From Thuidium tamariscinum (taxonomy: Eukaryota; Streptophyta; Bryopsida; Hypnales; Thuidiaceae): a DNA stretch of 64,000 nt. Under the pieces are notes generated by a model that was given only the letters and a program-made list of their open reading frames with translations, was not told the DNA's origin and did not search any database. The stretch is taken from contig OX344758.2 of NCBI GenBank assembly GCA_947034885.2, positions 22,037,067-22,101,066 of the forward strand, in the 5' to 3' direction. Shown in pieces: positions 1,621 to 62,451 of the stretch. Each line of letters begins with the position of its first letter. Position 1 is the stretch's first letter. The position numbers were made by a program, and so were the translations under genes.

Positions 1621-1756
1621 TATAAGATATATTCCTTGTCCCCACCTTCTATTAAAATTTAGGCTTGAAATACAAAAATCTCCAATCACATGTACTTGCC
1701 CGAAATTGCTATGTTGCCAAATTAAGCAAGTTAGTTAACCTTCAAATGCTACAAGA

Positions 1757-7617: not shown

Positions 7618-7629
7618 GAGGTGATTGTA

Positions 7630-8902: not shown

Positions 8903-9153
8903 ACGGTACTAGTATGTGAGAATGAAAGTATGAGCACGTGAGCATGAAAGCATGAGCATGTGAGCCTTGAGCATATTTATAAGTATGTACTATGAACCAT
9001 TGAAAGTATTTATAAAATAAATACTTATAATATAGGTATTTGTAGCACATATTCACTGTTAAGATAGAAAGTTGCTATAATATAGATACTTATATTATAG
9101 GTATATAGTCTTCTAGGCTCACATTTTATGTTTACATAATAACAATCCTAATA
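8903..9153. mobile_element. Mutator-like MITE, copy B
   Basis: 251 bp with ends like copy A (ACTAGTATGTGAG; TAGGCTCAC...TACATAATAAC). The flanking duplication AAAATACCA (8894-8902) and AAAATACTA (9154-9162) is 9 bp with one mismatch. The stretch GAGCACGTGAGCATGAAAGC is an internal duplication of the end sequence, which explains the greater length. Confidence 0.85.
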
Positions 9154-9169
9154 AAAATACTACCACATT

Positions 9170-11040
9170 AGACAATAATATTTAATTAATTTTTAAATAT
9201 TTTTTTGAAAAAGAATATTTTTTAAAATTTAAATTTTTTTTCTATAATTTATAATTTATTTTAATTAATTATTATTCTAGCTAACATTGGCTAGTTTATA
9301 GCAATGGAAATGGGCCTGAAACAATCTTTGAATGCCCTCAAAAAACATCTAAGGCAATAAAAAGCTAAGAGATTTTGCCTCAATAAACTATTAAATATAT
9401 TTCATAATTCAAAAATGACTTAACCAAAATACTTGTAGAATATTTCCTATTTTTTTATAATGTAGCTAATTTTTTTTGTGAATTCAATTAGTGCAACTAT
9501 GAGCAATGATCAATGAAACAATCTACAATTATAGGCTTCCTACACTTATATTTTCAATTTCTACTCATAATGGTTATGGTTGATTTTAGATCTATTTATT
9601 TTTAGCATTTTGGAAATCATAATTTACTCATATAGAGTCCAAAATTGTATGCAAGAGAATATAGTATTCTTTTTTTTATTTCCAACGAGATTTTACAATA
9701 ATTATATTAGGCATTTTGATAGTTGTAGCCATACTCAAATTCTTTTTTGGATAATTTTGTTATCTTTCAATGAGTTCAAGCATAACATCATTATTAAACA
9801 ATTTGAAGAAGGCCTTTTTGACTCTTATGAAATTGAGAACCTTATTAATCCCTAAAAGCCCAAGGGGTTTGTACAAAACAAAAATGTGTTATAAAATATT
9901 AGTTTTGCAAATCTTTTGTGGTTTGCATCAAAAAAGATAATATAGAGCACTATAAGTAGAAAGTATCTATATAGTCAAAATTATAAAATCATTTTAGATT
10001 TTCTTTAAATAAATCTTCAAGATAATCCTTCAAGAATTCATGAGAAATATAATTTCTATCTTTAGCATTTGAATTTTTTTTTATTAATCAAAATTCTTGA
10101 TTTGTCAAAAAATGTATAAGATCTAATAATGAGAGTACCAACACTTTTCCCAAAATAGTAAGCTTTTCAACACTAGGCAAATTATAAATATTTTGTGCTA
10201 TTTTTCTTATAATTTTTGTTTTGACAGTAGTGATCTTAGTTTTGAATATAAGTATTGAAAGGCAATCCAATCTTTTCAAAAAAGAAAAAAGAAATTGAAA
10301 GGAATTTTTTTTCTACTCGAAAATTCTACCCTAAATCACATAGTGACTAAAAAATAGTCGTTTGATCGTTTAGAGGTTAATAAAGTGCCCTAGAGTTTGT
10401 ATTTTGGATGATGAATAAAGTACTTCAAAGAATATTTTATCCAAATAACTTCATATGCATCCAAACTAATGTTCAAAATCTTTTAAACAAATTTTGTTTA
10501 TAAGCAAGTTGATTGTAAATTATTAACTTAATTAATCATGATCAACAAAGGATTTTGGGAGTCAAATTGGTCAAAAACTCTCTCTATGCAAGATTTTGTA
10601 AGAGGGATATTCTATCCAATGCATGCTTTAGTTGTCACAAAAGACCAAAGAAAGAAAATCTTAGCATGGCTAGAATTTATCCAACTTTATAGTATTTTTT
10701 TATCACATAGGGATGGAAAGGAAATAAATGTAAAAATTTTAGGTGTTGAGAAACTTGCCTACTATCATTCAACTAACTAATTTTGTTTTTTCCGACCTCT
10801 ATCAGAAGCTAATTTAGACTTTCATTTCCAATATGAATTCAAATTTTTGAAAGTTGACCATCTAGTGGTAAATAATAAGTTCTTTCTTTTTCATTACATA
10901 TAAAGAGACTATGAGACTTTTAGCTGTAGCCAAGAAACCTCTAAATTGGATGGAGGTAGGGATTTTCCAAAAGTGCCCTATTTTTTTATCAATACACAAA
11001 TTCTAATACAAGATCACTCAAACTATTTTCATATTTTCTT
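9170..11040. other. AT-rich spacer, no gene recognised
   Basis: 9170-9340 resembles the AT-rich repeat at 41060-41250 (CTAGTTTATAGCAATGGAAA; CTGAAACAATCT). The remainder shows only short AT-rich frames (for example 9580-9855) without motifs. Confidence 0.45.
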
Positions 11041-11044
11041 GTTG

Positions 11045-11735
11045 GAAAATAAAAGGCGGTTCTAAAGCTCAAAAGAACGCTACATTTAGATACCATGTGC
11101 AAAAATTACAAAGGTCAAAGTTCTTATTAGTAGGTATTTTAAAATTGTTTCTTCCACATAAATACATATATGGATTTTTGGAGCTATATGTAGAGTGATG
11201 ATGGCAATTTCTAGCAAATGAAAGGAGGTCCTAATGCTTAAAAGAACGCTACACTTAGATACCACGTGCAAAAGCTACAAAGATCAAAGTTCTTATTACT
11301 AGATGTTTTGAAATTGTTTCTTCCATATAAGTACATATTTGGATTTTGGAGATGTACTCAAAGTGATGATGGCAATTTTAGGCAAATGAAAGCTGAGGTT
11401 TTAAGGGTTTTAAAAGAACGCTGCATTTAGATACCACATGCAAAAGCTACAAAGATCAAAGTTCTTGTTGCTAGATGTTTTGAAATTGTTTCTTCCATAT
11501 AAATACATATTTGGATTTTGGAGATGTACTCAAAGTGATGATGGCAGTTTTAAGCACATGAAAGCTGAGTTCCAATGGTTTTAAAAGAATGCTGTTCACT
11601 TGGATACCTTGTGCCAAAGTAAGAAAGATCGAAGTTCTTGTTGGTAAATGTTTTGAAATTGTTTCTTCCACATAGATATATATTTATTGATTTTGGAGCC
11701 GTACACAAAGTAATGATGGCGGTTTCAGTTCCGGG
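11045..11735. repeat. Four-copy ~171 bp tandem array
   Basis: AAAAGAA(C/T)GC anchors at 11071, 11240, 11412 and 11583 (spacing 169, 172, 171). Each unit continues with TTAGATACCA-TGC, AAAG-TC-AAGTTCTT, GAAATTGTTTCTTCCA and GTGATGATGGC. The last unit is cut at about 11735. The unit size is close to that of many centromeric satellites, but four units make only a local array. The small minus-strand frames here are copies of one another because of the repeat. Confidence 0.9.
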
Positions 11736-19237: not shown

Positions 19238-19474
19238 AATAGAAATGCTAATATGAGCATAAAAATGTAAGCATGTGACCCTTGAGCATATGTATAAATA
19301 AATCTACCACAAATGAACGGGTGTTTATAATATAAATACTTATAATGTAGGTGTTTATAATACATAGTTACACAATAATCATAGAAGTTTTCTATGATAT
19401 AGACATCTATAACATAGGTGTATAGTCTTCTAGGTTTACTAGTTCAAGCTCCTATACTCACATAATTGCAACCC
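19238..19474. mobile_element. Mutator-like MITE, copy C
   Basis: ATGCTAATATGAGCATAAAA at the left, TAGGTTTACTAG...CTATACTCACATAATTGCAACC at the right, with the family's internal AATACTTATAATGTAGGTG. Flanks TTTCTAAAA and CTTCTTCAAA are only partly alike, so the target duplication is doubtful and this copy is older. Confidence 0.7.
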
Positions 19475-21363
19475 TCTTCTTCAAAGTATGGTCAAATTCT
19501 TCATCAGTATTTATTTTTGATCAAATCTAACTATAGAATCTTTTGGTTATCTTGTTGAAGTTAGCATATTGTTCCAAAATTTTAGAGTGGATATTTCTAC
19601 CAATTGCAAGTTCAATGTGTCTAAACTTCAAAATATTTTTCTAATCCTTTTAAAAGATAAAGAGTTGTTTTTTTCAATATAGTTTGAAAAAAAAATGTCC
19701 TAAACTTGTGCATTTTGATCAATAAGTTGAAAAATGGGTTGAGAATAAATTTGAGAAAATTAACCAAATCTTTGACATTCATTTTTTTCTTAAATTGTAA
19801 ATTGGAAGGTATTACTTAATAAAAGATAAAACTAATATGCTAGTAACTTTTAGAAGAATTTGAGAACTATTTATTCCAATCGTGAGAATCTCGTAGTGAA
19901 GACTCAATATCCTTTATTTGTATTTTTATTTGAAAATTTTGAAAATTGAGAATAAAAGACAACTTCACATATTTTTCCAACCTTTACTGCCTCCAAAATA
20001 ATACTTCTCATACCTTTTAACTCATTATTTGGAACTCAATGGTTCAAATGTTTTTGAATAGGTATCAATCATTAGGAAAAATTTGAATTGTAGAAGGCAT
20101 GATTTTTGGTCATATTGCATTTATAGAAAAAATTAAAAAATATTTATTTAATAAAATATATTTGAAATCACAAATTTGACACAGTACTAGTAGTGCTATA
20201 TCATTTCTAATTAAATTTTTTTTGTTATTGCACTACTATGGCAACAATGTACCAAAAATTGGCAACTAGCCCTGACCCTACTTGCCACCCCAAATCCCCT
20301 TGCTATTGATGTCAATATAAAAAAAAATTCAAACCCCTTCACCAACCACTGATAATGTGACATGGTTTCACAATGTGCAAGTAGCTTCAACTATCCAATT
20401 GACTAGCTCATTTAATTCTTCAATTCCCTTTTGAGTATAGTCATTTTGTGAAGTTGTCCTCTCATCTTCCATTCATAGTGCATAAGCTCTTGAATGTTAC
20501 ACTCCATTTTGAGCATTACAGTGTAACCAAAAAATTTCAAAGAATTATTTATGTAGATAATATGTTGTATAAAATATTCAATGAATTCCAAAATTCAGTA
20601 AATTATTGCAATTGGGAAACTCAAAAGACGCCATCAATATCATGTACTACATTTGCTTTTGAAATTGATACATGTAAGTCAAGCAATATATTTACAATCA
20701 TATGATGTATATGACATAGCAACCACTATCACCTTGTCAAATTCTTGATTTGTAAAGTAGGACAACCATCAATTCAAGCGACTAACCAAGTTGTGAATTG
20801 CTCATCTTAGTACATAGGTATGAATATGCAAATTCATGATGATGATCCCATTTTAATATCAACAACTATTGTAATTTTTTATTATTCAAGTTCTATTGAC
20901 ATTGGTAGAAATTTCAAGATTTTAGATGTGTTATTATTATCAAAGACCATTTCAATTCAAGATGTCTTATTGTTGGAGAATTTTCAATTTAGCTAATTAG
21001 GGTTATGTCTCCTCACAAGTCATATATTCTTTACTAATGTTGATTACATGTTTATTTTGAACAGAATTGGAAAATGCTGCCTACATTGCAAGTCTTCAAA
21101 GGTACAATTTGAAAATCAAGCAGGAAACATGATGGGAGGCTTAGTGTGACACCAACAATAATATGTGTTTTTGTTGAAATTGTCATACAGGTGTATATTT
21201 AGATGCTTAAACCTAACAAAAAAGCAAGAAAATGAGGATAACATCATTGTCATTGACAATACAAAAGAAGATGGGACATGTCTTGTTAACTTACAAGGAA
21301 GCAATGATAGCCAAGAACTTGAAGCCCATGTGCTCCTATGTATATTCTAGTTGCTTGTGAAGA
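19475..21363. other. AT-rich spacer
   Basis: No gene recognised. The frames at 20448-20705 and 21165-21350 lack motifs. Confidence 0.45.
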
Positions 21364-21372
21364 CCTTGATTT

Positions 21373-21589
21373 CCAACAATGCTAGTGTGTGAGCATGAAC
21401 ATGCGAACATGTGAGCTTCTAATATGTATATAAGTAGATATACTACCACCTTTGAAGGTGTTTATAGTAAAAATATATATAATATAGGTACCTATAATAT
21501 AAATACACTCTTATTATAGAAGGTTTCTATAGTATAAGCACCTATACTATAGGTGCATCATCTTCTATGCTCACATACTAGCAACCATG
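21373..21589. mobile_element. Mutator-like MITE, copy D
   Basis: 217 bp. AATGCTAGTGTGTGAGCATG at the left, CTATGCTCACATACTAGCAA at the right, flanked by CCTTGATTT (21364-21372) and CCTTGACTT (21590-21598), a 9-bp duplication with one mismatch. Confidence 0.85.
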
Positions 21590-22689
21590 CCTTGACTTCT
21601 ATAACAACTTGCTTCTCTAGATTACATCAGTCTAGTTTATAGCCATGTAGTCAAGACAAGGGAATCGTTGCCCCTTCAAAAGCATTAATAGCCATTGACA
21701 ATTTGCCTTGTGTATTATTTGTGATAATTAATAAAATAATACTTTGAAGTTGACATTTTCTCACAATAGGCTCAAACAATAGGCTCAAAATAGGCAATAC
21801 TTCCCTATCCCCCTATCTTACAACCTTTTGCACTGTTTAATTTTCCCTAATGCTTTATATTTCCTATAAAATAATTGATACTTTTTTAGGGTATGTATTT
21901 TTTGCTACCTGGTTTGACATTGACATTGTAAAAAACTTTTAACTTTTTCAAAATTTATTGGAATGATATGAAATAAAGCTTCACATATAGATTATGGTTA
22001 GTAGCATCCATCCTAAAAAATCCATGAAAAAATTATGAAGTCAATAAAGCCTATTTGAGTTTTCAAAAAGCCAAAAGTGAACTCTTTGGTCTTTAGAGGT
22101 TACATACATTTTCATTCTACAAGGCTTGTATTCATGACGTCCCCTTGAAAAATTCATATTTAAAGTTCTTTGTGGAATCAATTTTTTATAGTTTTAAAAA
22201 AATCAAGTATAGAATGCCTTATAAGTGTCAATGTGCAAAAGTCCTAAAAGCCACCTAAATTTTAAAATTGTCATTTATTTGGAAAAATAAAAATTTGAAA
22301 AGATGTAGATATAATATATGGATGAGGCTAAGCATGTTACCTACATCAATATTCTAACCTCACTAGTATAATAAAATGAAAAAAAATTGAATTATTCAGA
22401 TAAACCAAATTTTAGAAAAAAACTCAAGTGCACTGTTAAAAATAGTTTTTTCAAAGTTAGAAAGTTTGTTCAAAACCTTTCTCTTTTACCAACAACAAAT
22501 TCAACAAAGTTTGACCAACTTTTAAACATAGACATCTACACTTATCAATAGGAAAAGTACCCACTAGTGTGTACAATGATTTAACACTTGATAATTACCA
22601 CATGCTTTCAAATAGAGTTTGTCTGAGTGCATAGTTGTTTTAAGTTTATAAGTCACAATATATTGCCACATGCCATGGGAAAAGCTAGA
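21590..22689. other. AT-rich spacer
   Basis: Nothing recognised beyond low-complexity A/T runs. Confidence 0.45.
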
Positions 22690-22990
22690 TAAGGTAGTCT
22701 ATTCTTAAAGCAACCATTTGATAAATGATAGCCTTTTCACAAAAGCTAAAGTCCATGAAAAAATTTCAAAATTTTTTTAAAGAAAGAAAAGTGGAATTGA
22801 CATTTAACCCAAGTTGTTTCCAACCTTTGTGCAATTAATAACCAATATTTGAAATTGAAACACAACGGTCACTCAAAGCAACCACCTCCTAAAATGTACA
22901 CTTTTGGTACATTGAAGAAAACAAAACGTACCTCTATGTCATGTTTGTTTTTAGAAGATGGTCACTTTTAGAGCATACTACTTTAGACAC
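22690..22990 (+). repeat. Dispersed repeat, family R3, copy 2
   Basis: GGGAAAAGCTA, GTGGAATTGACAT, CAAGTTGTTTCC, GAAATTGAAACAC, GTCACTCAAAGCAACCACCT and AAAATGTACA match 7630-7890 in order. Confidence 0.65.
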
Positions 22991-26264: not shown

Positions 26265-27359
26265 TGTGGACCGTGACTGCAAAATTTCCACACTGCGAAT
26301 TAACCCTAAAAAGGCCAAGGATTCATGGTAATAAGAGGACCAATTCGGTTGACCATATTGTGAAAGTTATAATTCTAGATCACCAGAATCAGTGAAAAGT
26401 ATTGCATTATAAATTGGATTAAAAAGAGTCTCAAATGACCCAATCAAACCTGCTTAAAAAAAGTCAGCCTAATATGAGCTTCACGAGTCTTTAGGGGTTA
26501 AGGAGCAGCCCTCTTTCCTCTCTCCCGTAATCATGGAAATTATTTCCTCAAAGAATCGATCTGGAGAAAAAGCAATGTCCTAGCGCATTATTCAGGGTCC
26601 AGTGACCGCACCTGGACTTTCGTCCCCTTCTGTCTGGACGACATTCAGCTCCTCTTATATGGTGAACTTTCTTTCTTGCGGAACGCCTCATGCAGATGGA
26701 TCTCAGACGAAAATCACGAAAGTCTTCTAGCCTTCGTCATAGGTCATGCAATGTAATGCCAGTCAATGCCCCGCTTGAGCCTACAACCACATCATGCCAC
26801 AAATCCTCATTCACAACAGTATCTACAAGCTCCTACACATTGACGCGCAACTATTACAAAACACACCCTCCTAAACATACAGTGACAGCCTCCAATCAGA
26901 GCAAGCAAAATCGAAATTAATAAAACAGTCGGCTAATTATGCTCCTAAAGCTAAGAAAACATGGTAGGGCACTCTACCTTAACCCTAGCAGCCGGAACCC
27001 TAGAACACGACTCCCATCCCCTCGCATTCCATCATTCTGCGCATCCAACGAACACGGAACTCAATTGCAATTCAGAAAACCCTATCTCCTACATAGCATC
27101 TCCAACACCACAGCAAAGCTTGCAATTAACGTTTCTTAGTTCTCTTAAGTGCATATGTGACATAACATACCCCAATTGGCGACAACGACTTCAATGCAAG
27201 AAAGTGCTCCACACGCAACCATCGCCTGTCGCGCTTGTTCCCGTCTTGGCCTGCTTAACAAGACGATTCTCCTCGCACTCTTGTCTACCACAATTGAATG
27301 GAAACACGCAGTTGGAGATGCAATTGCGGACACGATTGCTGCACAGCGCTATAACTTAC
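26265..27359. other. Upstream region of the F-box gene; no convincing gene
   Basis: Mixed composition. Telobox-like AACCCTA motifs occur at about 26301 and 26980-27000, typical of plant promoters of growth-related genes. At 26498-26501 a TTTAGGGG-TTAA end resembles one terminus of the TTAA-flanked repeat family. Several open frames of 60-190 codons overlap on the plus strand at 26690-27527, but none shows recognisable motifs. Confidence 0.4.
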
Positions 27360-28339: not shown

Positions 28340-28700
28340 TAGCATGAATGAAGAACTTGTTGGGATTTTGTGGATTAAGATAGGTGGCTCTAAAAGCAAC
28401 CTAGCTCTAAAATTAACCTCTAATACAAAGGTACATTTTGGTCTCTTCTTAGTACAAATGTTGTACATTTGAGCAAGAGCTTGCTTTAAGAAATCATTGC
28501 ATTTCAACTTCAAAAATTTGTAACTAATCCCACAAAAGTCCAAACAATATGAAACGACTTGGGTTGGATGCAAATTCCATTTATCTTCCTATGAAAATTT
28601 ACTGAAATTTATTTCAAGGAGTTTAGCTTCTCCCAAATTGCAATCAGCTCTTAAAAGGTTACTTTACAAGCACACTACCTTATGCTACACCAATGTGAAT
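28340..28700 (-). repeat. Dispersed repeat, family R3, copy 3
   Basis: The segment around TATGAAACGACTTGGGTTGG (about 28547) with flanking AAAATTTGTAACTAAT and AAAATTTACTGAAAT aligns with 50040-50320 in the same orientation and, inverted, with 7630-7890 and 22690-22990. Neither clear termini nor a coding frame are visible. Confidence 0.6.
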
Positions 28701-28926
28701 AGAGAGTGCTACATTGGGTGCCTCTTGCATTTATTGTTGTAGAGTACTCTGTACATTTGATGTCCGTAAATGTAGGATACAAAGTACAATAGTTTTTTCA
28801 GATTTTATTGATACTTCCTTTACACTCATCTCTTTAACTTATGCTTCTTCATATTCCGTGCACAGGAATTCACGTAAAGAAATTGTGGAGATGATGACGT
28901 TAGTCTAAAAATGGTGCAAACTGAAA

Positions 28927-38089: not shown

Positions 38090-39039
38090 TTAACCCCTAA
38101 AGGTTTTTGACTACGTTTTCACCAAAAATGCTCCAAAACTACCATTTCTAATACAAGTGCAATTTATTTTAAAACACATTTTTGACTCCTGTAACCGTAG
38201 GATCTTGTAGTAAAGTGGTTTGTAAACATGTGGAAAAAATTTCAAAAATTTCCACCATGTAGATTGCAAGATATAAGCATTTGAATTGACAAAAATTGTT
38301 CTTTTATCCCTACGAAAATCTGGGCAGCTGCACTTCACAAGGTCACATTTGTATGAAAAAAAATTCAAAATGGTGGTTACTCTTTGAATTCATATTTCAA
38401 TGCAAGTTGGCTACATTCTCAAAAAATTTCAAACCATTTGGAATTGTACAACATATAGGAAATAATAAGTAAGTAGAAAGAAATAAAAAATGAGCCAAAA
38501 TACTAAATTGTGAACATTTTATTCATGGAATTGAAAATTTTCAATCCCAATGGTTAAAATGTTGTAATAAACAATCTACATCTTCTATTTTTATTTTTTT
38601 CCAAAAATATAAAAAATTGAATTAAATGAAGAATTTTAAACTTTTTTTGTACTGTAGAGATTCTGTAACTAGCCACAAACTACCCCAAACTCAAAATCTT
38701 CATTACTTTTGACTCATTGATCAGAATGAATTGATTCAAAGCTTCCCATGTCTGTATAAACCTAAAGAACCAATTTGAAATTCCACTTCTTAAAAAAAAG
38801 TTTTTTTGAAGAAGTTTTTTCAGCTGCCTGGGCTGCCCGCCGAGTAAAGAAAACAACATATCTTGACATAACTTTTTAACCGTGAAGTCAAAAGTTATGA
38901 AAATTGTTGGTCTTTAAAGCTACTCTTTGGGCACACATTGTATCAAAATTTCAAAGAAACAAAATAAAAACTCCATCTGTAGTGAGCTACCCAAAAAATT
39001 TATAATCTCAAAAAATGTTGTTCAGGGCTTTAGGATTAA
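38090..39039. mobile_element. ~0.94 kb TTAA-flanked element (piggyBac-like family), copy 2
   Basis: TTAA (38090-38093) then CCCCTAAAGG; the other end GGGCTTTAGGA then TTAA (39036-39039), the latter slightly degraded. Internally it aligns with 48794-49724 read in reverse (AACCGTAGGATCTTGTA, ATGTAGATTGCAAGATATAA, ATCCCAATGG, CGGCGGGCAG). No transposase frame, so non-autonomous. Confidence 0.75.
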
Positions 39040-41260: not shown

Positions 41261-41837
41261 AGACCTAAACTCCTCTAATGCCTTATTTATTACAACTACA
41301 CTAGGGTTTTTCTTGGATTAGAGTCATTCCCTCTAGCCTCACTATACAAGCCAAATTTTGGAAAGTGAAACAAATATAAGCATTAGAAGGGGTTTGAAAA
41401 CATTCGGAGGTTGCAAATTATGTTTAGTTACCAAATTGTAGGAACATTCCACATCAAGAATCTGACGTAGTTAAGAGACTACCACGTTAAAAAATAGTAT
41501 TTGTAAGTTTTTTTAGTTATTTAAAATTACTTTTTTAAACACTTTTCTACAAATTGTGATCAAATTGAATTGGTATTAGATGCTTTTAGGCATCGATTCA
41601 CAGGTTTGTACCTGGTTTGCAACATGATTGGGGAATTGATCAATGGTAAATAAATAAGAAAATTTGCAAGAGTTGCAATTTGAAAGCTTGAATGCAACCA
41701 ATGCAAAGGCTACCTAGGCAAGTTAGGCAAGCTATTGATTTCAACAAAGATAAAACCTCATCAAATTAATGTCTGCCAATATAGTTGAGTGATCAATGCA
41801 CCATACAATATCTAACATGATCCCATGCTCTCTAGTC

Positions 41838-42061
41838 CAACAATGCTAGTATGTCAACATGAAAGTGCGAGCACATAAGCCATGAGTATGTATATAAGTA
41901 GATATATGGCAATAATCATTGATGATGATTATAACATAAACTCCTATAATTAAGATATTTACAATATACTTGCACTATAATTATAGAAAGTTTTTATACT
42001 AGAGACATCTACACTATAGGTATGTAGTCCTTTAGGCTCATGAGTTTACACCTTTAGGCAA
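41838..42061. mobile_element. Mutator-like MITE, copy E (right end decayed)
   Basis: Left end CAACAATGCTAGTATGTCAA; right end reduced to TTTAGGCTCATGAGTTTACA. Flanks GCTCTCTAGTC (41827-41837) and GCTCTATAGTC (42062-42072) still show the insertion duplication. Confidence 0.75.
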
Positions 42062-42527
42062 GCTCTATAGTCCAAAAAACTCAAATATTGTGAGAATCAA
42101 CATCATTTGTATTTTTGTCAAATTGTTGATATTTTAAATGGTATAAAATGGAAACTTCCTTCAATTTAAAAAAAAATAAAATTGAAATGATGTATACCAA
42201 CATACCAAGACACAAAAATTCATTTTGGAGTTCTAAGAAAAAATTGACAAAAGATAATGCAATTTCAATTCATAGTCAATAAAACCAAGTTTTAGACATG
42301 GCTAACTTTGAAATTAATTTTTTTTTCAAACTTCCATTGTAATATGTAGTAGGTCATACACTACCAACTCTTACATATATACTTTTGGACTTTACCCATT
42401 CATACTCATGGTATGGTTAGTTGAGTGAAAATATTTCAGATTTATACATAGTTTTGTTAGCAGTTGTAGTATAAAATTTCAAAAAAATTCAATCCAAATA
42501 TTAATAATTTAGAGACTATATGTATTT

Positions 42528-42776
42528 TTTAATAATGCTAGTGCATGAGCCCCAATAAATGAGCTTATGAGCCTTGAATTTCTTATTGTGTATATGTACT
42601 AACAACCATTTAAAGGTGTTTATAACATATTTACATATAAAATAGGTACACTATAATATGGAAAGAGCCTATGACAAAGATACCTATAACATTGACACCT
42701 ACAGCTATAGAAGGTCTCCATTACATATACTTCAAGGCTCTTAGGTTCATAGATTCTATAATCACATGCTAGCACT
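42528..42776. mobile_element. Mutator-like MITE, copy F (divergent)
   Basis: AATGCTAGTGCATGAGC at the left, ATAATCACATGCTAGCA at the right, with GAGCTTATGAGCCTTGA and CTTAGGTTCAT inside. Target duplication not clear. Confidence 0.65.
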
Positions 42777-47312: not shown

Positions 47313-48793
47313 ACTTTTTATAGTGGCCTTTCATAGCAAGTGCCATTTTCAATAGCTCTTTGGTTCTTTCTATATATTGTAGGTTTATTTTATTTTATTT
47401 TCTTATAAACATAGATCAAGGCTAAATTTGCAGTGTTGAAAAATTATTTTTGTAGCCTCAAAATATATACCAGACTAATTTACAACTTAAAAGTACTTGT
47501 GTAATTATGATCAAATGTGTATGGTGGTATGGAACAAATCAAGTTTATCAATTGTAGTCGCCAGATTTTCTAGCTTGTGGAATAGGAAGTAAGCTTCAAG
47601 GACCCTGAGGCAACCATGACCCTTCCAAGGTGATTCCCATAGGGATACCTATTTTGCCCCTAGGTTATTCCTTCCGAGGAGCCTATTGCAAAGCAACCTA
47701 TTGTGGCGTATTAGCCATAGGTGATAGGTTGACATTGTGATAGAAAGTAATGAACTAATAATGGAATCTAGAACAAAGTGTTTTTTTTCCAAATTCTTTG
47801 GCTAACTTTGTAGTTTGTACTAATTGCTGGGTTTTTTCAATCATTGCATAGGTTGACATTGTGATTGAGGGTAATGATGCACTTATTCAACAGCTTGGTT
47901 GTAGCATAGTTGACAATACAAGAAAAGAAAAAGGTTTGTTTTGCCTGACGGTATTGATGGTTGGTTGAAGCATTTGATTTAAGAGTGATGCTAGCACTCA
48001 AAGCCTTCACACAAACTAGAATTCAAAGAGATAATGGAAGAGTTTGAGAAGTATTGTCTGAAGTTCCAGAGTTAAAGAATATGATGAATAGATATTTGGA
48101 GGCATTTGCAAGTATATATGATGAGGATTGGCCTTCCCCTCCAGTTTGTTTTTATGTCCAAACTAATGTTGCCATAACATCTTTTGCATCTGTCTCTAGA
48201 GTTAAGGTACAAGTAGACTATATTTGTTTCCCGAATCTATTGATTTAAATTAAATTGACTAAATCAAGAACTAAGATTGACTAGATTGATTTGATGGTCA
48301 CCCAATACTATTGCTTGTATTGGATGAAGAGGTTGAAGGTTGTCCTTTAGAATTCCATTTCGACTATTAGTGTGATGAAATTGAAGAATCTTGTTTTTTA
48401 GGCAATTCAAGTCATCTTCTTGAGAAAATAACTCAAGAGGGTTTGATTTTGAGTATTTGAAAATAACTCAGCTTTCATAATTTCCATTTGAATAAAGGCA
48501 CGAGTATAATTAACAACCCTCCTACACTAGTCACAAATTGATAGAACAAGCTATGAGGAAATCAAATGAGTTCATCTTCTATTGCATCCAATATGCATCG
48601 ACTGCAAAAAAATTGAGAATGTTCATCTAAAATTTTACAACAATTTGGTCATTCTACAATTTTTGGTAGAGCTTGCAAATCATAGTAGGCCTTAAAATGA
48701 GAGTAGTGTTTGTAAAATAAATAAATAAATAAGTACACTTGTTTTTTCTTTGAGCTCCTTAAATCTATCCTTTTGAGGTGGGCAACAATCGCA
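47313..48793. other. AT-rich region with decayed coding-like stretches
   Basis: 47520-47720 is a degraded copy of the 46346 frame. 47840-48130 has short runs with coding flavour on the plus strand (for example GAGGGTAATGATGCACTTAT, AAAGAATATGATGAATAG), broken by stops. No family recognised. Confidence 0.35.
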
Positions 48794-49724
48794 TTAACCC
48801 CTAAAGGACCATTGTCCCCTCGGGGGACAATTTGGAGTTCGGGCAGGTTCCGTAGACCTCAATTTTTAATGAATCTTTTTGAAACTTTCTCATAAGATAG
48901 GAAAACTGATTAGCTTCATGGGAATGTAATTTTTATTTCAATTGGTGACCGGGAGCAAAAGTTATACCACAAAAAGCCCAAATTTTCATTTGGCGGGCAG
49001 AATTTTTTTTTTGCAAAAAGTCAAAATTTAATTTTTTAATTTTTTTTTCTAAAATAATATATTTTTGCCTACATGTGAAGCCTTGATTCACTCTCATTGG
49101 ACTTATAATGAGAAAGTTATGGACAATCTTGTTTTTCGGGCAATCTAAACAATTTCTTGAAAAAATAACTTATAGGATTCATTTTTGAATGCAATTTTCA
49201 CAATTTTTCAAAAAAAATTGTTGGACAAGGTTATGTTTACTTTCTAGAACAATCTCACCATTGGGATTATTGTATTTCAATCCCATCTTAGAGTTATTAA
49301 CCATTTAGTTTTTCTTTCAATCTTGGACCTACATCTACTTAACAATTTTTTAAAGAATGAAAATCAAGTGTTTTTTGTGTGAAATTTTTTTCCTAGACTC
49401 TCAACTCAATTTCTTAACACAAAAAATTATAAATTCAAAGTCTATAGTGCAATTTTTTAATACAAATTCCAGTCAAAGTCATCTGAAATTGCAAACCACA
49501 GTTCAAAAAAACTTGTATTTCCAACTTTGAATGCTCATATCTTCCAATCTGTACGGTCAAACTTCATGAAATTTTTACCACTTGATCTCAATCAAGTTAA
49601 GTACAAGATCCTACGGTTAGATTCTTAAAAAAAAAAAATTTTTGTTTTCTTGGATGAATGCAACAGAAATGGCAGTTTTGAGAGGTTTATGACAGAAAAA
49701 AGGCCTTGGTCCTTTAGGGGTTAA
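48794..49724. mobile_element. 0.93 kb TTAA-flanked element with intact 14-bp TIRs (piggyBac-like)
   Basis: TTAA (48794-48797), left TIR CCCCTAAAGGACCA (48798-48811), right TIR TGGTCCTTTAGGGG (49707-49720) as its exact complement, TTAA (49721-49724). Just inside the left end lies a perfect hairpin TTGTCCCC-TCG-GGGGACAA (48812-48830). The TTAA target and CCC-starting TIR are diagnostic of the piggyBac superfamily. No transposase frame, so it would need an autonomous relative. The perfect ends suggest recent movement. Confidence 0.85.
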
Positions 49725-50039
49725 TTGGTTGACTTTCAGTCCATGTCCAAATTGAACCAAAATATATGACCCATGAACTATACTAAGCCATTGAATTTTT
49801 AAAACTCCATAAAACAAAGTTTAAATTGGAATTTGATGAAACTACCACCATTGAATTTATAATGCATCCTACTCTACAAATATAACTTTTATCACCTAAA
49901 AAACTCTCAAAATTTAAGAATGGGAACCTCAAAAAGACGGACAACAACCCAAAAAATCGTCACTTGGGGTCATGAGGGCCATTAGGGGGTTAATAAAGTT
50001 CTCTCTATGTAATGCACTTTTTGCAACATTTCTCATCCA

Positions 50040-50320
50040 GTGAGTACTTGTACATGTTTCTTTTTCATAGCCTTCAGTAGTGTACTGATAGTGTACATTT
50101 TAGCTAGGGCACCATTTTAGAGTCCTATGTCCTTTCAACTTCAAAATTTGATAACTAATTCAAAAAAGCTCAGAAAAATATGAAACGACTTGGGTTAAAT
50201 GTCAATTCTACTTGTCTTTCAAGGAAAATTTACTGAAAAATATTTCTAGAAGTTTTACCTCCCTGAAATTCAGTTTCAGCCCTTAGATGGTCCATTATAG
50301 GACCTCTTACCTTAGATGAT
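50040..50320 (-). repeat. Dispersed repeat, family R3, copy 4
   Basis: ATGAAACGACTTGGGTTAAA, AAAATTTGATAACTAATTCA and AGGAAAATTTACTGAAA align with 28340-28700. A GGGGGTTAA end lies just before it (49985-49993). Confidence 0.65.
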
Positions 50321-50389
50321 TGAGCACTGGCTAAATAAAATAAAAATATTGGAAAATAGTAAAATACTGAAAATAGTTTAAAAAAATTG

Positions 50390-50781: not shown

Positions 50782-51000
50782 TTAACCCTTGAATGGCCGT
50801 GGAAACCATGCATTTTGATACTGTGTGACATCACCTACTTTGAAAAAGCCAAATATATGCATTGGAAGTCAAAGTACTGTAGAAGATCTTTCCTTTTCAC
50901 CCCCAATACCAAGGATGAAAAGTTGCATTTCTGTCCCGGAAGGAAAGATTCTTTGTCATTCACCGGCCGCCAAACGTCCGCGGTGTTGTTCAAGGGTTAA
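50782..51000. mobile_element. Small TTAA-flanked MITE (piggyBac-like), copy 2
   Basis: 219 bp: TTAA-CCCTTGAA (50782) and TTCAAGGG-TTAA (51000) are exact complements. The interior is the reverse complement of 7388-7617. GC-richer and better preserved at its ends than copy 1. The two overlapping short frames inside it are by-products. Confidence 0.85.
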
Positions 51001-54499: not shown

Positions 54500-55723
54500 G
54501 GGCCTGGACAAATCTGCACCTGGATCCAAAATTTGGCTGCACATGCCCCCCCTGACAAGCTGACTTTTCCCAAAACCTTTAGTAACGCCTGCCCCTCATT
54601 TCTAGCCGGTGGCGAAATTTTCAACCGTTAGAAAATAAGTTTCCGCCCATTTTCTGGGCATTATTTCCAGCCCCGGAGTCTTAAAAAAACCCCACAAATA
54701 GTTCCCCCTTCCCAAGACCGACACGTGGCGACTGGCGATTGCATCGGGCAGGGTCCAAACCTGTACCGGGCAGGGTCCAAACCCGAAACTCCCATCTCCC
54801 AGTGAGAATCGGGCCCTCCACTTCGCCTCCGAAGTCAGGCGGGTCCCGTCCGGCCAGTCCAGTCCAGTCCAGCTACGCTTAGCTGCCAGTAGTGACGGTA
54901 ATTGCTTGCGCTTCCTTGCGCACGCATGCGCCACTTGCAGTCCCTGGAAGTTAAGCCTGCATCCCACCTCATTGATGATTGTCAACACAAGATCCCCTGG
55001 TGATGAATGAGGAGCATTTCAAGGTCTCAACTCATCAGACGTGCAGAGATTGAAGCGGACAGGAATCCCGAAACCAGTCAACCAGCTTGTGTCGTAAAGT
55101 CTAGCGCGCGCTCGATCACCTGTCAGGTGGTTCCATTAGAAAAAAATGGGAATTTAAGCACGGCGCCACTAGCGATGGGTTTCAATATGTTTTAGACTGT
55201 AATTCAAGGAGAAGGAAGTGTGTCCCGTGAATTCGAACACTGGGGAAGCGCGTGTTGCGGTTTGAATGTTGAAATCTCTTCAGTGGATTCTAGGTAGTGA
55301 AGAGCGGTATTCGTGGGGGTGATGAGACCCATGCACAGACAAAAGCGGAAGAGAAGTGTGTGTCTCAAGCGCACGAAATGTATCCCGAAGTGGAACAGAA
55401 GTATGGACCCCAGGTGCAGGAAATGTATCCCGAACTGTGCGTGCTCAAGTTGCGATCGTACAAATGGAGGGAGAAGCTGCGTAGTCCTGAGTTGTTGCCG
55501 TCTGCAATCTAGCTTTAGGGACATCCGGATGTTTGGGCTTCAGGTAGTTCAGGATTACAGAAGCATGGCTTAACGAGCATTCATCAATTGTAATGGACGA
55601 CAGAGTGCATTTCGACTGGAGAGGCAACGCGGCCTTGTGACAGGGACAGGTGATTATTGTAGGAAACTCCATTCAATCAATAGAGGCATGACAGAGAGAA
55701 TTCCGCCGCGTGCGCAGGGATGC
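54500..55723 (+). promoter_or_regulatory. GC-rich upstream/leader region of the large membrane-protein gene
   Basis: Sharp switch from AT-rich to about 50-55% GC at 54.5 kb. It contains GACACGTGGC (54719-54728; G-box/ABRE core ACGTGGC), a direct repeat of CGGGCAGGGTCCAAACC (about 54747 and 54768), and the alternating-purine TTGCGCACGCATGCGCCA. A short frame at 55297-55512 could be an upstream ORF if the leader extends this far; it contains two copies of a short repeat (EMYPEVEQKYGPQVQEMYPE). A minus-strand 128-codon frame at 54602-54988 has no recognisable product. Confidence 0.45.
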
Positions 55724-58700
55724 ATGGGCGCCACTGTGAGGGACTCACGAGTAGCGCTTGTCCTGTGGATTGTCTCGTTTGTTGCGGTCGCTGCGGAAGC
55801 ACAGAGTATTGACTTCACGGAGAAACCAGCGGGATTTTCGTCGGATGCGAATCCAACGTTTGCGTTTGAGGTGGTCGCGGGTGCGAATGGCGTGGATCCT
55901 TGCGCTACGTCGCAATGCGCATTCCAGTGCAAGGTACGTGTGTTGGCGGCTTGGCGCCATTCAAACAAAATTTACAGTCGTCTCCGAAGTTACAGTCGGT
56001 GGGATTACTTGTTTTGAGGGTGTCAGGGGTGTGTTTTCCGAACATTAACACGAGATTTGTAGCTGGCGCGCGCAACATGAAGTCATGCAATAGTGACGGT
56101 GAACTGGGTTCCGACAATTTTGAATTGTGAGAAGATTTTAAGCTTGTGAATAAAGGAGAGCGGTAGAATAATCTCGAAAAACAATGTGAGTAATGCGAAC
56201 TAGTAAGGGTACCTGATAGAGAAATCTATACCCCGGAAAAGATTCAACTCTCTTGGGCAACAGTCTCAGAAAGCATTAGAAAAGTGGTCCAGGGTGCTCT
56301 GAGTTGCGTAAAACGGCAAATATGTCGGGACGGTTGATCCGTAAACTACAAGCTCAAGAACAGAGTTACACAATTGCGGAAATGAGAACCGCGCAAGTGT
56401 ACCGAATTTCGCATTTCGTAACTACAGAGCTACAAATCCGCAGGGAATGTAGTGTTGCCCTCATTCGCCAAGCTTACTTTACAATACCGTTTGCAGACTG
56501 CAACATCCAGAAAATTAAATTACGTGCGCAGGAAGGTTCACCCGCGAGTACGAACGATCACTTAGACCCAAGTGCGAATTAACTTGGATATTAGACATGG
56601 AATCCGGAACCTACGCTGCTAGTCGTCTCTAATAGAAGCGTCTCGAACAGGATACATCTTGGGGCGCCTGTGCGTGTAGTGCAGGTGGGGTTCACGGTTC
56701 TACATATGTAGCCTAGACTTTCAGTTTCAGTGCCGACAGGTTTCGCAGCTAATGTGGTCAACCATGTCAACGATGCTCTCTCATTTGACCTCAGCAATTT
56801 TATATTATTTTTCCTCATTTCTCTTTTTTTCTGCATGGTGGCTCTAAGAATTCGATCGAGGCTACCAATTCTGGCAAAGTTTCGTATAATATCTTTGTGG
56901 GTTTGGTTGCTAAGTACAGTTTCTGTCGATTCACAATACTCAGATGTTTGTCTACAGATTTGGGTTTCCAATTTCTGTTAGACGCCCGTGTGTTCCGAAC
57001 CCATAAATTTACCTCAAGGTTGCCACCAGAGTCATGAATGCTTGTACCGGATTCTGAAGACTGTGATAAACGGCATGGTTTCTTCTTGCGCAGCTGGATC
57101 AGGGCGTGGCGCAAGATTGCTCAGGTCGCACATTCACCGCGTCCGATCTCGCCGATGGTTCTCACATGCTCACTGTCTCGGGAAGCACGTCGAACGGGAC
57201 TTTGTTGGCACCGAGCGTTTACTTGTGGACTGTAGATACGGTCCCGCCAACGGCTTCGGTGGTGACGAGCCCACTCTTCACGAGTGCGATCAACATCACG
57301 GTCAATGTCACCTTCTCCGAGGATTGTCCGACCTTCGAATGCTCCAATGTCAGCTCCTGCGACGTAAGTTCTGTGCTGCAAGTTTGTTTGGTCCACGGAG
57401 GAAGTTGGCATTAATTAGGGCTTGGAGTTTGATTATGATACGTTGTGTTCCAGTTGGTGTGGGGTTTCGGAAATTTCTAATGTCCAACTCTTAATTGGCA
57501 CATATTGGCACAGTGAAACTTGCCACAATTACGACATTGATGAGTCAATTGACTTGTGAAATGTTGTATTGCAGTTGTTGGTCCGAGGCCCAGCAATAGT
57601 GCTCCCTTCCACACTGGTAACGCTATCTCCAGGACGCGCGTACTCCCTCCAAGTCAGCCTGTCGACGCAAGTTCTCACGGGGAGGGTGGTCCTCACCACG
57701 GTCCGAAACATCTGCAGCGATGCAGCCGGCAACCGCTATCAACGCTCCAACGACTCCAGCAAGGTCGTCCACTTCAGTCGCTCCCAGCCGACGCTCAACC
57801 TATGGACGCCGCTTCAGAATTGGCAAGTGGAGACCGGCGCCCTCTTCTGGACAGCGCAGGCCACCAACGCCTCTGATGGCGTGCCCATCTATTTGGACTT
57901 CAGTGAACCCATGCTCGGGACAGCTGAGAACATTCAAGGTTTTCTCAATGCTAGTCACGGCGTGCTTCTTCCTCGCGAGCGAAAGAGTCGCGGCAATCGC
58001 CGATTTGCGTTCTCGGTAAACACCTATTCTTTTTTCTCGGCGAATTTTAGGGTTTAGAGTTTTGATTCGTCTTCCCTGTTTTGTGATTTCTCAAATCATT
58101 GGGGTAAGGTGTAGAGCTTGAAGATATTGTTTTCTATGTTTCGCTTGTGGCAGTTGTTGTTGAATGGTACTGGAACAGCTGCGGTGACCGTAGTGCTGCC
58201 GGGGAACACGACCGCTAGTCGCTATGGTGTTCCAGTGGCAGAAACCGCGACAGTCTCCTTCCTACATGGTTTGTGAACTCATTTTTACATGCTTTTTCAT
58301 GCTTGCTTTGTGCTCTCGAAAGGTCATTGGAAGACCTTTGTGCTAGGCCAAGATGATTTGATCCTCTGATTGTGTATTTATAAACTTGGATTGACAAGAA
58401 ATATTTACAAAGAAGTTGGCAGAAGTTTTATGCTGTTGCACACCTTTCTCATTCAATGGATTGAATGTAAACTATGTCCTGCGCATTTTTACATATTGTC
58501 AGAGAAGAATAAAGCTGAGTGCTCACTGAACAATCTAAGAATGTCGTCCCATTGAATTCTCATAATCAATGGCACTATTTTTTTAGATGAGAATCATGTG
58601 TACGATTTGAATATAAATTTTATTGTTTTTCTTTTATAACATTAATTACCAAGGCAAAAGACTCCCTTCAATTGTAGAAAAGGACGAAAAATACTCATCC

Positions 58701-61700
58701 TTCTTCAAAGCTTGAATCTTAGTGCTGAAGGAATGAGAAAGCGGGATCATGCATCTGAAACAAGTTTCTTTAGTGGAAAGACATTGACACCAGTGCGAGA
58801 GCTCTTTCTCCATGAGTTTCTAAACTTATTTTTTTTGCATGAAGCTCAAAGTCTCTCACTCAGCTATGTTTCTTCGCAGATGTCGACTCCCCCAAAGTTC
58901 TGTTGAGCACAAACTCTCGAGCACATACACGCGACCGTCTTCTTCCCGTCATTGTACAATTTACAAAGCCTGTGTTCTCGTTTAACAACTCGGGTGTCAC
59001 CCTCGCCGGCGGAGTATTGCAAAGGTTAGCTTTGAATTCTTACGGTGAATTTCGTTAAAATGGCAATACTCCTGCAGAATGGCGCAGCATTTCATTAAAA
59101 TGTCGCTGAATATGTCCGAAATGACACGACATTCCATTAAAATGACGCGGAATGTGGCAAAATGGAAAAAATAAACACCGCCATTTAAATGGAATTCACC
59201 ATCCTTTTCCGTGGGTTCATGTCCATGTGCCATGGTGATGTAATTGAACTGATTGACAGTTTGTGGTTACAGTTTCAGGGAGATTTCAAAGACGACCTAC
59301 GCTCTTGTGGTGTTGGCGTCAACAGATAGTAGCAGGGTTTCAGTTTCCGTGGCTGGAGGTCGAATTCTAGATGTTGCTGGAAATTCGAACGTCGCTTCTT
59401 CAATGCTGCACATCAAACATTGTGAGTTTTCAAGAACTTATTTTGGCTTTGCTTGAGTTTGATAAGATGAGTGCTCCATTTTACATGGCTTCTTCAACCA
59501 TACATTTACGATTTCGTTCGATTCCTTTTCACCGAATACCATGTTAAACCAATGAAACCGGCTACGATTCCACTTTGTGAAAGTGCATTGTTTTCAACCT
59601 CCGCATGTGGAGTTTTAGGGCTATAATTTTTTTAGGGTTTAGGGTTTAGGATTAGGTCAGAATTAGCATAGTCTACTGCATGTTTTTTGGAATTCGAAAG
59701 CTACGAAAATGACGAAAAATCTGTGTTGAGTTGTGTCCATTAAGCTGTTGGCGACAACAAAAAGAATTCAAGATCAATTCTCAGATGGGCTACGACCTTA
59801 TTTGCTTGTTTTTGTGGACCTTTCCTTGTTTTGCTTTCTGGTTTTGCAGATTCTTCAACACCGGGCATCGCAGTGGCCTTGTACTCCTTCATCACGGCAG
59901 GTTTACTGGGCACGGCGTTGTTTTCCGGCGCGCTAGCCATCTCCTCCGCCAATTTGGCCGCTGCAGGCGCGGTCCTCGGTCGATCTACGAGCTGTGCGGG
60001 TGCCGATGCGTCAAGGAACCTCTTGGGCATGGCAGGCCACTTGCAAGTGCTGGCGCTCTCGAGCTTCCTGGCCGTGAGCTTGCCCGTGGGGTACACCGAG
60101 ACGGCGAATGGCTTGCAGTGGTTGATTCCGCATGTCAACACTCCCTGGCAGAAGAGCGTTGAAACGAACTATACGAGAAGCTTTGATTCCAGTGTGCCAA
60201 CCAATTTCACATTCAATGTTCGCCGAAACTTGGTTTCGGTACCTCATGACCCTGTTGGAGAGCAAGCTCTGTCTTCGGCGTGCAGGATGTTGCACCACTG
60301 GTCTACTCAATACGTATGTTCCGATCCTAAACCCCTTCCCTGACGTTCCTGTGATTGTAAGTCTCAAATTTTAGGTTGTGTTTGTGTCTATGGAATCATC
60401 GTCCTCGTGGCTAAACTGTTCAGTGACATTGGCATTGTGGGCATAGTTGCAGGGGAATCTGAATTGCTCACTGTACAGTGAAAACTTAGCTACAACTTAT
60501 TTGCCCGGGACTTCCATGGGAAATTTTCTGTCCCAGGATCGAGAACCACATAAGCAGAGTCGACGGCGTTTGGGTGCCAATGGGACCGAATTCGGACCAC
60601 CCATGGTCGCAGCAGCATACGAAACTTACTTTCTCGTAAGTGCTAAATCCTAACTCCTTGGTAGTTAGCTTGCAAGATGACGCTGATGGTTCGTTACTGA
60701 TGGGTTCGTTTTTGCATTACAGAATCAAGCTGCGAGTCTTAGTAAATGGAAGCAGGAGTTGCTTGCGAAGAAATACACCGGGTGGAGAGATTTCCAGCGT
60801 AACATTTTCTGGCTGGCAGTAGTCTTCGGCGGTTTGATACTCCTGCACATTCTTTTGCTGTTCTTCTTGCGCTGGAGATTCAGGACGCCACTTCATAGCG
60901 CGTTAAGCTTCCCCCGCTTCGAGCTTTTCCTGCTCATTCTCGCTCTGCCTGCCATTTGCCAAGCGTCTGCGTTCATCATCAGAGGTAATTATAACAATTT
61001 CATTCCTCAGAGGCTTTAGGTTTCACATTGCATAATTCGACCTCCAAACTCTCTCCATTTGAAAAGCTCGAGCCACGACTGGTACTGTATAGAATGGAGT
61101 TATTCCATGTCACCCCTTGGAGTCCAGTGACAGATTTGGCTATGCCGTTGGTGCAGGCGGTACGAAAGCTGGAATCGCTGTAGGGGTCGTGCTTTTGACC
61201 ATTCCGGCGTTGCTTCTCCTCGTGACAACGCTGTTGATCATCTTCGGAATCTTTCGCGGCAAGCGCGTCCGGTACACTGAACTTCGGCCTCAATTGAAAC
61301 CAGACGACACACTTACTCCTACACCACCACTGTCGCTTCTCACCGGAGCTGGTCACCTCGGCAATTGGACATCCACCAGTGCTTCATTCATTCCACGCTT
61401 CGGCATCTTGTTCGAGGATCGAAAGGGCCCTCCAAAGCTCGTCGACGCGAATTCTAACACAACTGACGGCGAGCACGAGGAGCGAGCCGTGTCACGGGCC
61501 TACACAGCATTAGGGTGCTTCCAATCCGCGTACATTCTGATCGATCTTTCGAGAAGGATTTCCTTGGGAGTGATCTTTGGTGCATTTCCAGTGACAGACA
61601 AGTCATGGACGGAACTCTCTCTGGTACTCGCCATCACTGCAACACAGCTTCTCTACCTCGTCACCACCAAGCCATTCCAGCGTCGTTTCGTGCAAGTCGT

Positions 61701-62451
61701 GGAGACCGTCTCCCTTCTCTGCGAGATCGGCATCTTCATAGCAGCGATGGCGATCCTATCCCAAGACCAACCCTACGAGCCTTACTGGGGTTTGGGTGTT
61801 TTCATGCTTCTTCTCTTCGTGTTGAGCTTCGTCGCACAGATTACGAGCGAATGGTTCGCTCTAATCCGCCAGCTGCTTTGGTTTTCCAACACGGAGGAGA
61901 TTGCACCCAAGGCTAGTTTGAAAGCGTTTGCGCTTGGGCTCGTGTTGCCGTTTCTTCCTCGAAACCGATGGCCACAGTTCAATACAGCAGCAACGACACA
62001 AGAAAGGCCTCCAACACCACCCATTGCTAGAGTCTCTGAGGTTGGTCACCGCAGAGCAAGCAGCTCCGGGGGGCAATCCCAAAGCAGCCCTCTTCGTTCT
62101 CCTGTGCGAGTAGTTGGAGGCGTTTCCAAATCTGCAAAGCCTGTTATTTCACCACCAGAAAATTGGCCAGGGGAAGATCTCCAAGAATGGGCACGTCAAA
62201 ACTCTTTAGAAAGAAGACACCAGCAATCAGAGCTCGTTTTGAATCCCATGGTGCACGAGATTTTGCCTGCAGATGCTTTGAAGTTTCACTATGAAGCTCC
62301 CACAGCGACTGTCGTGACCAAGTCTCGCCATCGACTTGTTCACAGTGATTCTCTTTCTGATACTCTCTCATCACAAGGAGAGTTCAGCCTAGAATCGCCG
62401 GAGCGCACGTTGTCAAGGCAGCACTCCATTGACGTTGGACCTGTATCTTAG
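55724..62451 (+). CDS. Large polytopic membrane protein with Ig-like ectodomain, TRP-like, 10 exons, 1177 aa
   Basis: Exons 55724-55933, 57094-57363, 57575-58015, 58154-58268, 58880-59024, 59273-59421, 59850-60313, 60453-60635, 60723-60984, 61157-62451 (3534 nt; every phase closes). A signal peptide (1-27, cleavage AEA|QS) begins at the third of three in-frame ATGs (55637, 55688, 55724). The ectodomain to about residue 445 is Thr/Ser/Val-rich with repeated strand pairs: DVDSPKVLLSTN, VDTVPPTASVVTSPLFTSA and DFSEPMLG / FTKPVFSFNNSG / VTFSEDCPTF, typical of bacterial-type Ig-like folds. Membrane spans: about 450-474, 505-525, 687-709, 725-745, 752-782 and four more to about 950. A Ser/Pro-rich cytoplasmic tail of over 200 residues ends the protein. 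Overall order resembles TRP-like or polycystin-like sensors, but no channel signature is certain. Confidence 0.82.
59044..59200. mobile_element. Short TIR element (MITE) in intron 5 of the large membrane gene
   Basis: 157 bp. The left end GGTGAATTTCGTTAAAATGG pairs with the right end CCATTTAAATGGAATTCACC. Inside, CATTTCATTAAAATGTCGC and CATTCCATTAAAATGACGC form direct repeats of the same core. The end motif GTGAATTTCATTAAAATGGC also occurs alone at about 40370. No coding capacity. Confidence 0.65.
59629..59650 (+). repeat. Interstitial telomere-like motif in intron 6
   Basis: TTTAGGGTTTAGGGTTTAGG, nearly three units of the Arabidopsis-type telomere repeat, within the intron between exons 6 and 7 of the large membrane gene. 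Too short to mark an old chromosome end; it may act as a telobox. Confidence 0.7.

Follow-up and report, generated by a model that had tools for sequence, protein, structure and literature searches.

A 931-bp non-autonomous piggyBac element in a plant genome with abundant and diverse piggyBac

Locus and host

The window, that is, the whole stretch of 64,000 nucleotides analysed here, corresponds to C10:22037067-22101066 in a genome of 363,211,507 bases on 19 contigs. It carries genes for a cytochrome P450 (closest solved structure, CYP90B1), a rubredoxin, an F-box protein and a dephospho-CoA kinase, together with weak kelch matches. In addition, a plus-strand run of long open frames at 55574-62451 resembles one multi-exon gene; the three of its frames that were tested gave no Pfam match. 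At 48794-49724, on the plus strand, lies a 931-bp non-autonomous piggyBac element, hereafter called E49. It encodes no protein (the longest open stretch has 78 codons), and Pfam searches of ten unannotated open frames in the window revealed no transposase.

Auxin response factors mark the streptophytes, while the presence of dyneins excludes the flowering plants and the Zygnematophyceae. In the genome, PF06507 (auxin response factor) has 10 matches and PF03028 (dynein heavy chain) has 9, each matching exon being counted separately. The host is therefore probably a streptophyte with flagellated cells, which backs the streptophyte setting suggested by the first-pass annotation of this DNA.

Ends of E49

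E49 has the layout TTAA / CCCCTAAAGGACCA ... TGGTCCTTTAGGGG / TTAA. The left TTAA target-site duplication occupies 48794-48797 and the right one 49721-49724. Directly inside them, the left terminal inverted repeat (CCCCTAAAGGACCA, 48798-48811, plus strand) is perfectly complemented by the right one (49707-49720, minus strand), and this perfect length of 14 bp falls within the range of about 12-19 bp that is typical of piggyBac. An intact-ended element of 0.93 kb had been proposed at exactly this position, and its coordinates, TTAA flanks and perfect ends are all confirmed.

Of all TTAA-flanked pairs spaced 100-3000 bp apart in the window, E49 alone matches at 10 of 10 end bases, and no such pair was found with AATT, ATAT or TATA as flanks. 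A flank-blind scan of the window for convergent CCC ends, 80-1500 bp apart, likewise returned a single independent pair in which at least 12 of the 14 bases agree, namely E49 (the second row of the scan is the E49 pair displaced by one base), and the flanks of this pair are TTAA.

According to PMC2872659 and PMC10175614, piggyBac elements follow a TTAA/CCYT rule, and bee piggyBac elements are described as starting with CAC (PMC10140906). E49 starts with CCCCT, which is the CC[C/T]T motif displaced by one base and not a strict CCYT. In the autonomous elements of the same genome, described below, the start is CCCT in L041-L044 and at one end of L040, and CCCCT in L045 and L046. Since L045 and L046 start with CCCCT and yet encode PF13843 transposases, the strict CC[C/T]T motif does not discriminate here.

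Subterminal palindrome

The left end of E49 contains a 21-bp palindrome at bp 14-34 (48811-48831), with 9-bp arms and a 3-base centre. This is the subterminal perfect hairpin noticed at first pass, and nowhere else in the window does a perfect inverted repeat combine arms of at least 8, a loop of 0-6 and a G+C content of at least 50%. Its core, GTCCCCTCGGGGGAC, recurs in the autonomous L046 at bp 17-31. Moreover, palindromes with arms of at least 5 occur at one end of five of the seven autonomous elements, each starting at bp 17 or 18, against a background of 13.6% (P 8e-4), in a post hoc test that was made after the palindromes had been seen and that scanned only bp 13-40. The E49-type copy L050 has A-T as the first base pair beyond the core, versus T-A in E49, which means that both sides have changed.

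The palindrome is absent from E38 (a relative of E49 in the window), from L060 and from the autonomous L045, and is decayed in L053, L055, L057 and L058. Palindromes are not generally enriched at the ends of the window's TTAA elements; among 12 ends, only the left end of E49 is conspicuous. In the left end of T. ni piggyBac, the cysteine-rich domain of the transposase is described as binding an internal repeat of 19 bp, which is palindromic and located at bp 17-33 (PMC7351741). By analogy, the E49 palindrome may be a binding site for the cysteine-rich domain of its own transposase. A palindrome at one end near bp 17-33, which is one mark of piggyBac, is thus present in E49, and it is absent or decayed in some of the subfamilies.

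Relatives of E49 in the window

E38 (38090-39039, minus strand) is a 950-bp relative from another subfamily, with the ends TTAACCCCTAAAGG and TTAATCCTAAAG and partial matches to the autonomous L045 and L046. Its alignment with E49, in inverted orientation, runs from one end to the other (E 2e-28, 54% identity), and the suggestion that a relative lies here thus holds over the full length. Two old copies lie on opposite strands at the left edge of the window: copy A (about 1-712, plus strand), which is truncated by the window edge, and copy B (about 822-1738, minus strand), which has a TTAA at 1735-1738 at its aligned end. A degraded inverted pair had been reported at 1-1620; the pair is real, but its extent has to be corrected, as it reaches 1738. 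Copy C (about 19485-20073, minus strand), which is partial and old, had been overlooked, and a short fragment of the family (48334-48465, plus strand, E 6e-5) is located just upstream of E49. The reversed window gave no match to the same family profile. The identities among copies A, B, E38 and E49 are 49-66%.

Genome-wide copies and empty sites

The 18-mer end TTAACCCCTAAAGGACCA occurs, with at most two mismatches, at 17,099 sites in the genome (8,560 + 8,539), as compared to 17 (7 + 10) for the reversed pattern. The genome search for TTAA-flanked ends that had been proposed as a check thus yields a strong excess. The TTAACCCCTAAAGGACCA sites listed (100, all exact) include 13 convergent pairs with spans of 897-934 bp. 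All 13 were fetched, and since they were chosen by exact 18-bp ends on both sides, TTAA included, the conservation of their ends is by construction. The TTAA-free pattern CCCCTAAAGGACCATTGTCC has 597 exact sites in the genome, and its control has none. On contig C1 below 9.8 Mb, an exact TTAA precedes 15 of 18 CCCCTAAAGGACCATTGTCC sites (chance, about 0.6% each) and is missing from the other 3, a count that presumes that the TTAACCCCTAAAGGACCA listing includes every exact site to 9.8 Mb of C1. A scan of viral contigs gave no match. The lone match in a collection of genome contigs, in a Denitrovibrio MAG, was judged from its surrounding sequence to be a chance match of the 18-mer and was rejected.

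One of the fetched copies, L059, sits within another copy of its own family. When its flanks are rejoined, with the insert and one TTAA removed, the junction is found uninterrupted, with a single TTAA, in L003, L053, L055, L056 and L048. These are five of the six related copies viewed from a longer list of aligning copies; the sixth is E49 itself, which is alignable at the junction and has a diverged TTAA. In L003, the junction is covered by positions 59-369, in a copy beside L003's own element. Similarly, L008 is inserted in a relative of window positions 3454-3958, where the window is continuous and the TTAA is diverged. These empty sites are paralogous, within the same genome. A TTAA target-site duplication, as expected of piggyBac, is accordingly seen in the E49 flanks, at the 15 of 18 sites and in the single-TTAA junctions. 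A further nested insertion is found at position 217 of L023, where an autonomous piggyBac element with a 1023-aa frame is inserted at the TTAA of an E49-like end, one TTAA being common to both.

These results bear on whether E49 might instead be a MITE of the Tc1/mariner (TA) or PIF/Harbinger (TAA/TTA) type, with a target that lay by chance within TTAA. Both superfamilies belong to the usual five of plant MITEs (PMC12550479), and TA, TTA and TAA are all contained in TTAA. However, the full TTAA is present at 15 of 18 sites where a TA or TAA/TTA duplication would be expected, the related empty sites retain one TTAA, and the ends of E49 match those of an element with a piggyBac transposase (see below). 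We therefore regard a mariner or Harbinger origin as extremely unlikely, and assign the TTAA duplications to piggyBac.

The copy number could also derive mostly from segmental or tandem duplication. On C1, the E49-type elements L057 and L058, separated by 66 kb, have their flanks in common and represent a segmental duplication, which leaves one duplicate among the 13 fetched copies. Nevertheless, the 13 copies have 12 distinct flank pairs, and L059 is inserted inside another copy; duplication as the main source is thus very improbable, and transposition is the preferred explanation.

piggyBac transposases and autonomous elements

A first look at the genome with PF13843, the piggyBac transposase domain, gave 659 candidates. 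Of these, 116 were scored and all 116 were above the cut-off, 74 of them without an internal stop, while none of 14 control genomes had a match. At seven of seven loci examined with enough flank, convergent TTAA-flanked inverted ends enclose the transposase frame. A piggyBac-type transposase, for which the first-pass annotation had proposed a search, is therefore encoded in the same genome. The seven loci are a non-random set: L040-L042 were picked for their intact or repeated frames, and L043-L046 because their ends lay outside the first fetch.

The ends match at 12 of 12 bases in L041 (7,936 bp), L042 (5,396 bp), L043 (5,616 bp) and L044 (5,390 bp), at 11 of 12 in L045 (7,121 bp), which has TTAACCCCTAAAGGACCA on one side and TTAACCCCTAAAGG on the other, and at 10 of 12 in L046 (5,143 bp, with an open 774-aa frame) and L040 (5,096 bp). 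L040 has two possible left ends (11/12 at 964 and 10/12 at 1939), and we adopted 1939 because all 11 copies have this same end at an equal distance.

The open frames of the seven elements are 625-1023 aa long. Over 488 shared columns, the seven transposases are 33-55% identical, with L045 and L046 as the closest pair (55%), and 81 columns are invariant; the D-E and G-V-D..D blocks contribute their acidic residues to these. The last 70 residues contain 6-8 cysteines in five of the seven proteins, 2 in L042 and 3 in L044. The best match of the L046 protein among solved structures is T. ni piggyBac (PDB 6x67, 9e-33), and in the alignment the acidic residues of three blocks, ..IDE.., ..DN.. and ..GVD..D.., coincide. 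We take these to be the catalytic (DDD) residues of piggyBac, and as judged from this alignment the predicted L046 protein keeps them.

Relationship between the small elements and the transposases

Both ends of E49 are homologous to L046, with order and orientation preserved: positions 1-95 and 679-931 of E49 match positions 1-95 and 4892-5143 of L046, and the two elements thus run in the same direction. The left 95 bp (48794-48888, plus strand) are 77% identical to the left end of L046 (E 1e-14), and the right 253 bp (49472-49724, plus strand) are 71.6% identical to its right end (E 1e-33). Ends shared with a PF13843-coding element of the same genome, a further mark of piggyBac, are accordingly found in E49. 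The middle of E49 has no match in L046, and E49 therefore resembles a relative whose interior was deleted or replaced. At the termini, 12 of 14 bases on the left and 10 of 14 on the right are identical. Because the ends are not identical and the homology is only 72-77%, L046 is to be considered a relative of the true helper and not a proven helper.

The copies related to E38 are closer to L045. One end of L045 is matched by L007 (1-142) and L060 (1-53), while L005 and L008 match this same end at both of their sides. However, E38 and L007 match the right-end region of L046 as well, so the pairing of small elements and helpers is not clean. The two branches of small elements thus pair, if imperfectly, with the two related transposase lineages L045 and L046.

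TTAA is also duplicated by Sola3, which has a Sola transposase, and by Kolobok, the other well-known TTAA-duplicating superfamily. A non-autonomous Kolobok would explain the TTAA duplications of E49, and Kolobok has been reported in chlorophytes and rhodophytes (PMC9587614). Kolobok and the T2-MITEs, however, differ from E49 in their transposase and in their ends, which are given as 5'-RR..YY-3' (PMC9587614, PMC6004289); E49 reads YY..RR, with CCCC...GGGG, and the element to which both of its ends are homologous codes for a PF13843 transposase. A Kolobok identity is therefore vanishingly improbable. The piggyBac assignment made at first pass, in turn, is borne out by the genome-wide excess of ends, the PF13843 transposases and the existence of an autonomous element that is homologous to E49 at both ends.

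We are accordingly highly confident that E49 is a non-autonomous (MITE-like) piggyBac element, now or formerly mobilised in trans by a transposase of the same genome, most likely of the L046 type, and that at least one autonomous lineage here has been recently mobile. As a piggyBac MITE, E49 is an ordinary kind of element; the setting, a plant genome with abundant and diverse piggyBac, is unusual.

Age and recent activity

E49 is 97-98% identical to L049, L052 and L054, 92% to L051, 70-81% to L048, L050, L053 and L055-L059, and 49-57% to L060, E38, L007, L005 and L008. This comparison covers all 18 copies, and the conservation profile was made without L058 (the duplicate locus), L005 and L008. 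Among the autonomous elements, the 11 loci L021-L031, with the 1023-aa frame, have 0-2 differences over the 3,984 bp fetched, and 36 of 55 pairs are identical, while their flanks, seen on one side, are different in all eleven. Near-identical elements with different flanks imply that this lineage, which is not the E49 lineage, has probably moved very recently.

E49 itself may belong to a piggyBac family that spread long ago, with no helper moving it today. Copies A, B and E38 are old, as their identities among themselves and with E49 indicate, and the recent lineage L021-L031 is a different one. On the other hand, three other copies are 97-98% identical to E49, and open transposase frames are present, including that of the related L046. 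We consider a dead E49 family possible but not the likelier case, and retain the reading of E49 as an element mobilised in trans, now or formerly.

Taken more broadly, and with moderate confidence, we propose that the piggyBac population of this streptophyte plant is large and diverse and is moving at present. It would comprise at least seven autonomous lineages (with 33-55% identical transposases), one of them near-identical among its copies, together with non-autonomous swarms and a one-end palindrome at bp 17-36 that has been kept since the ancestor shared with insect piggyBac.

Proposed mechanism and comparison with known systems

Transposition of E49 would proceed as follows. First, the transposase would bind the CCCCTAAAGG end of E49 together with the palindrome at bp 14-34, the latter at a single end. 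Second, it would cut the element out and form a 4-base TTAA hairpin intermediate, as in T. ni piggyBac. Finally, E49 would leave without a scar and reinsert at another TTAA, again as in T. ni piggyBac. Several such element subfamilies and several transposase lineages coexist in the genome.

piggyBac is an insect transposon that has become a standard in genome engineering, and the group is best known from animals. The elements of the present genome share with T. ni piggyBac (IFP2) the TTAA duplication, the CCC-type ends, the DDD transposase and the cysteine-rich tail, here that of L046. They differ from it in that E49 is non-coding and the host is a plant. The palindromes are similarly placed, at bp 14-34 in E49 and bp 17-31 in L046, as compared to the reported bp 17-33 (PMC7351741), while T. 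ni piggyBac, given as 2.5 kb and 594 aa (PMC10140906), is shorter than the seven autonomous relatives (5.1-7.9 kb, 625-1023 aa). The coral (Acropora) CMITEs are likewise described as non-coding TTAA elements that have their ends in common with an autonomous piggyBac-like element of their own genome (PMC2872659); sequences, host and length differ, and the one-end palindrome and the thousands of end copies distinguish the present case.

In plants, a 2008 survey lists only five other cut-and-paste superfamilies as described (PMC2528002), and the superfamilies given in a 2025 survey of 207 plant genomes, namely five plus one special group of MITEs, do not include piggyBac (PMC12550479). In contrast, PiggyBac is among the angiosperm MITE superfamilies of one review (PMC10004981), and the repeat table of the fern Ceratopteris has 1,230 copies under the same superfamily name, an entry that is a table line only, its description giving no ends, transposase or activity (PMC6890710). 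The statement that the superfamily is rare and poorly described in plants thus stands in part: a large piggyBac expansion in a plant is absent from the literature matches listed, which cover subscription journals thinly and are weak evidence of novelty, but the fern table and the angiosperm review do name PiggyBac.

The thousands of piggyBac-type ends in a plant genome suggest that TTAA elements of early-diverging plants may be misfiled or overlooked. They also point to candidate transposases that work, now or recently, in plant cells. If the broader reading of a moving piggyBac population is correct, L045, L046 and the small elements that look like them, with their partly parallel branching, would constitute a natural system of helper-passenger co-evolution, and could provide a native plant source for a scar-free integration tool.

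Other TTAA/CCC-ended elements in the window

The window contains four strict convergent TTAACCC pairs (three of them independent), against a shuffle mean of 0.04. Lone TTAA+CCC ends are in no clear excess (14 in the window, against a shuffle mean of 8.6 and a maximum of 19), nor are matches to TTAACCCTT with at most one mismatch (23 against 25), whereas near-matches to TTAACCCCTAAAGG are enriched in the window (17 against 6.2).

Four further TTAA elements or candidates, absent from the first-pass annotation, were found, and F2, F3 and F4 gave no match to the seven autonomous elements. F2a (50782-51000, plus strand) is a 219-bp element, TTAACCCTTGAA...TTCAAGGGTTAA, of a family other than that of E49. 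F2b (7388-7617, minus strand) is its 230-bp relative, with its left part tandemly duplicated at 7029. F3 (26300-26501, no strand assigned) is a 202-bp candidate, TTAACCCTAAAAAG...TCTTTAGGGGTTAA, on the 5′ side of the minus-strand F-box open frame, and F4 (9845-10380) is a 536-bp candidate with weaker ends. F3 and F4 are supported by fewer matching end bases than F2a and F2b. The region 2952-4031 was dropped as a TTAA element; it is partly a relative of the sequence that hosts the L008 insertion.

F2b offers an empty-site case on one side: its right breakpoint falls on a TTAA of an interspersed repeat, which has four copies in the window (7614-7860, 22660-22960, 28400-28760 and 50080-50380), one of them broken at the TTAA by F2b. 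A search next to F2b for the other, left half of this repeat did not find it; one of three queries, L22, scored 23 against a shuffle 95% level of 22 and was not counted. TTAA/CCC-type ends without a recognised partner lie at 49979-49993, 7019-7032 and 7378-7391, and the one at 7391 abuts F2b with a TTAA in common. A 359-bp unit at 6791-7510, in two tandem copies that are 94% alike, includes the left part of F2b and its flank. In addition, a tandem array with a 172-bp unit in 3.8 copies occupies 11071-11720. Finally, blocks resembling TATAATATAGGTG and GTGAGCATG characterise a family of interspersed repeats at 1876-2041, 8897-9122, 19248-19439, 21370-21576 and 41834-42649, and relatives of this family flank the L053 element too.
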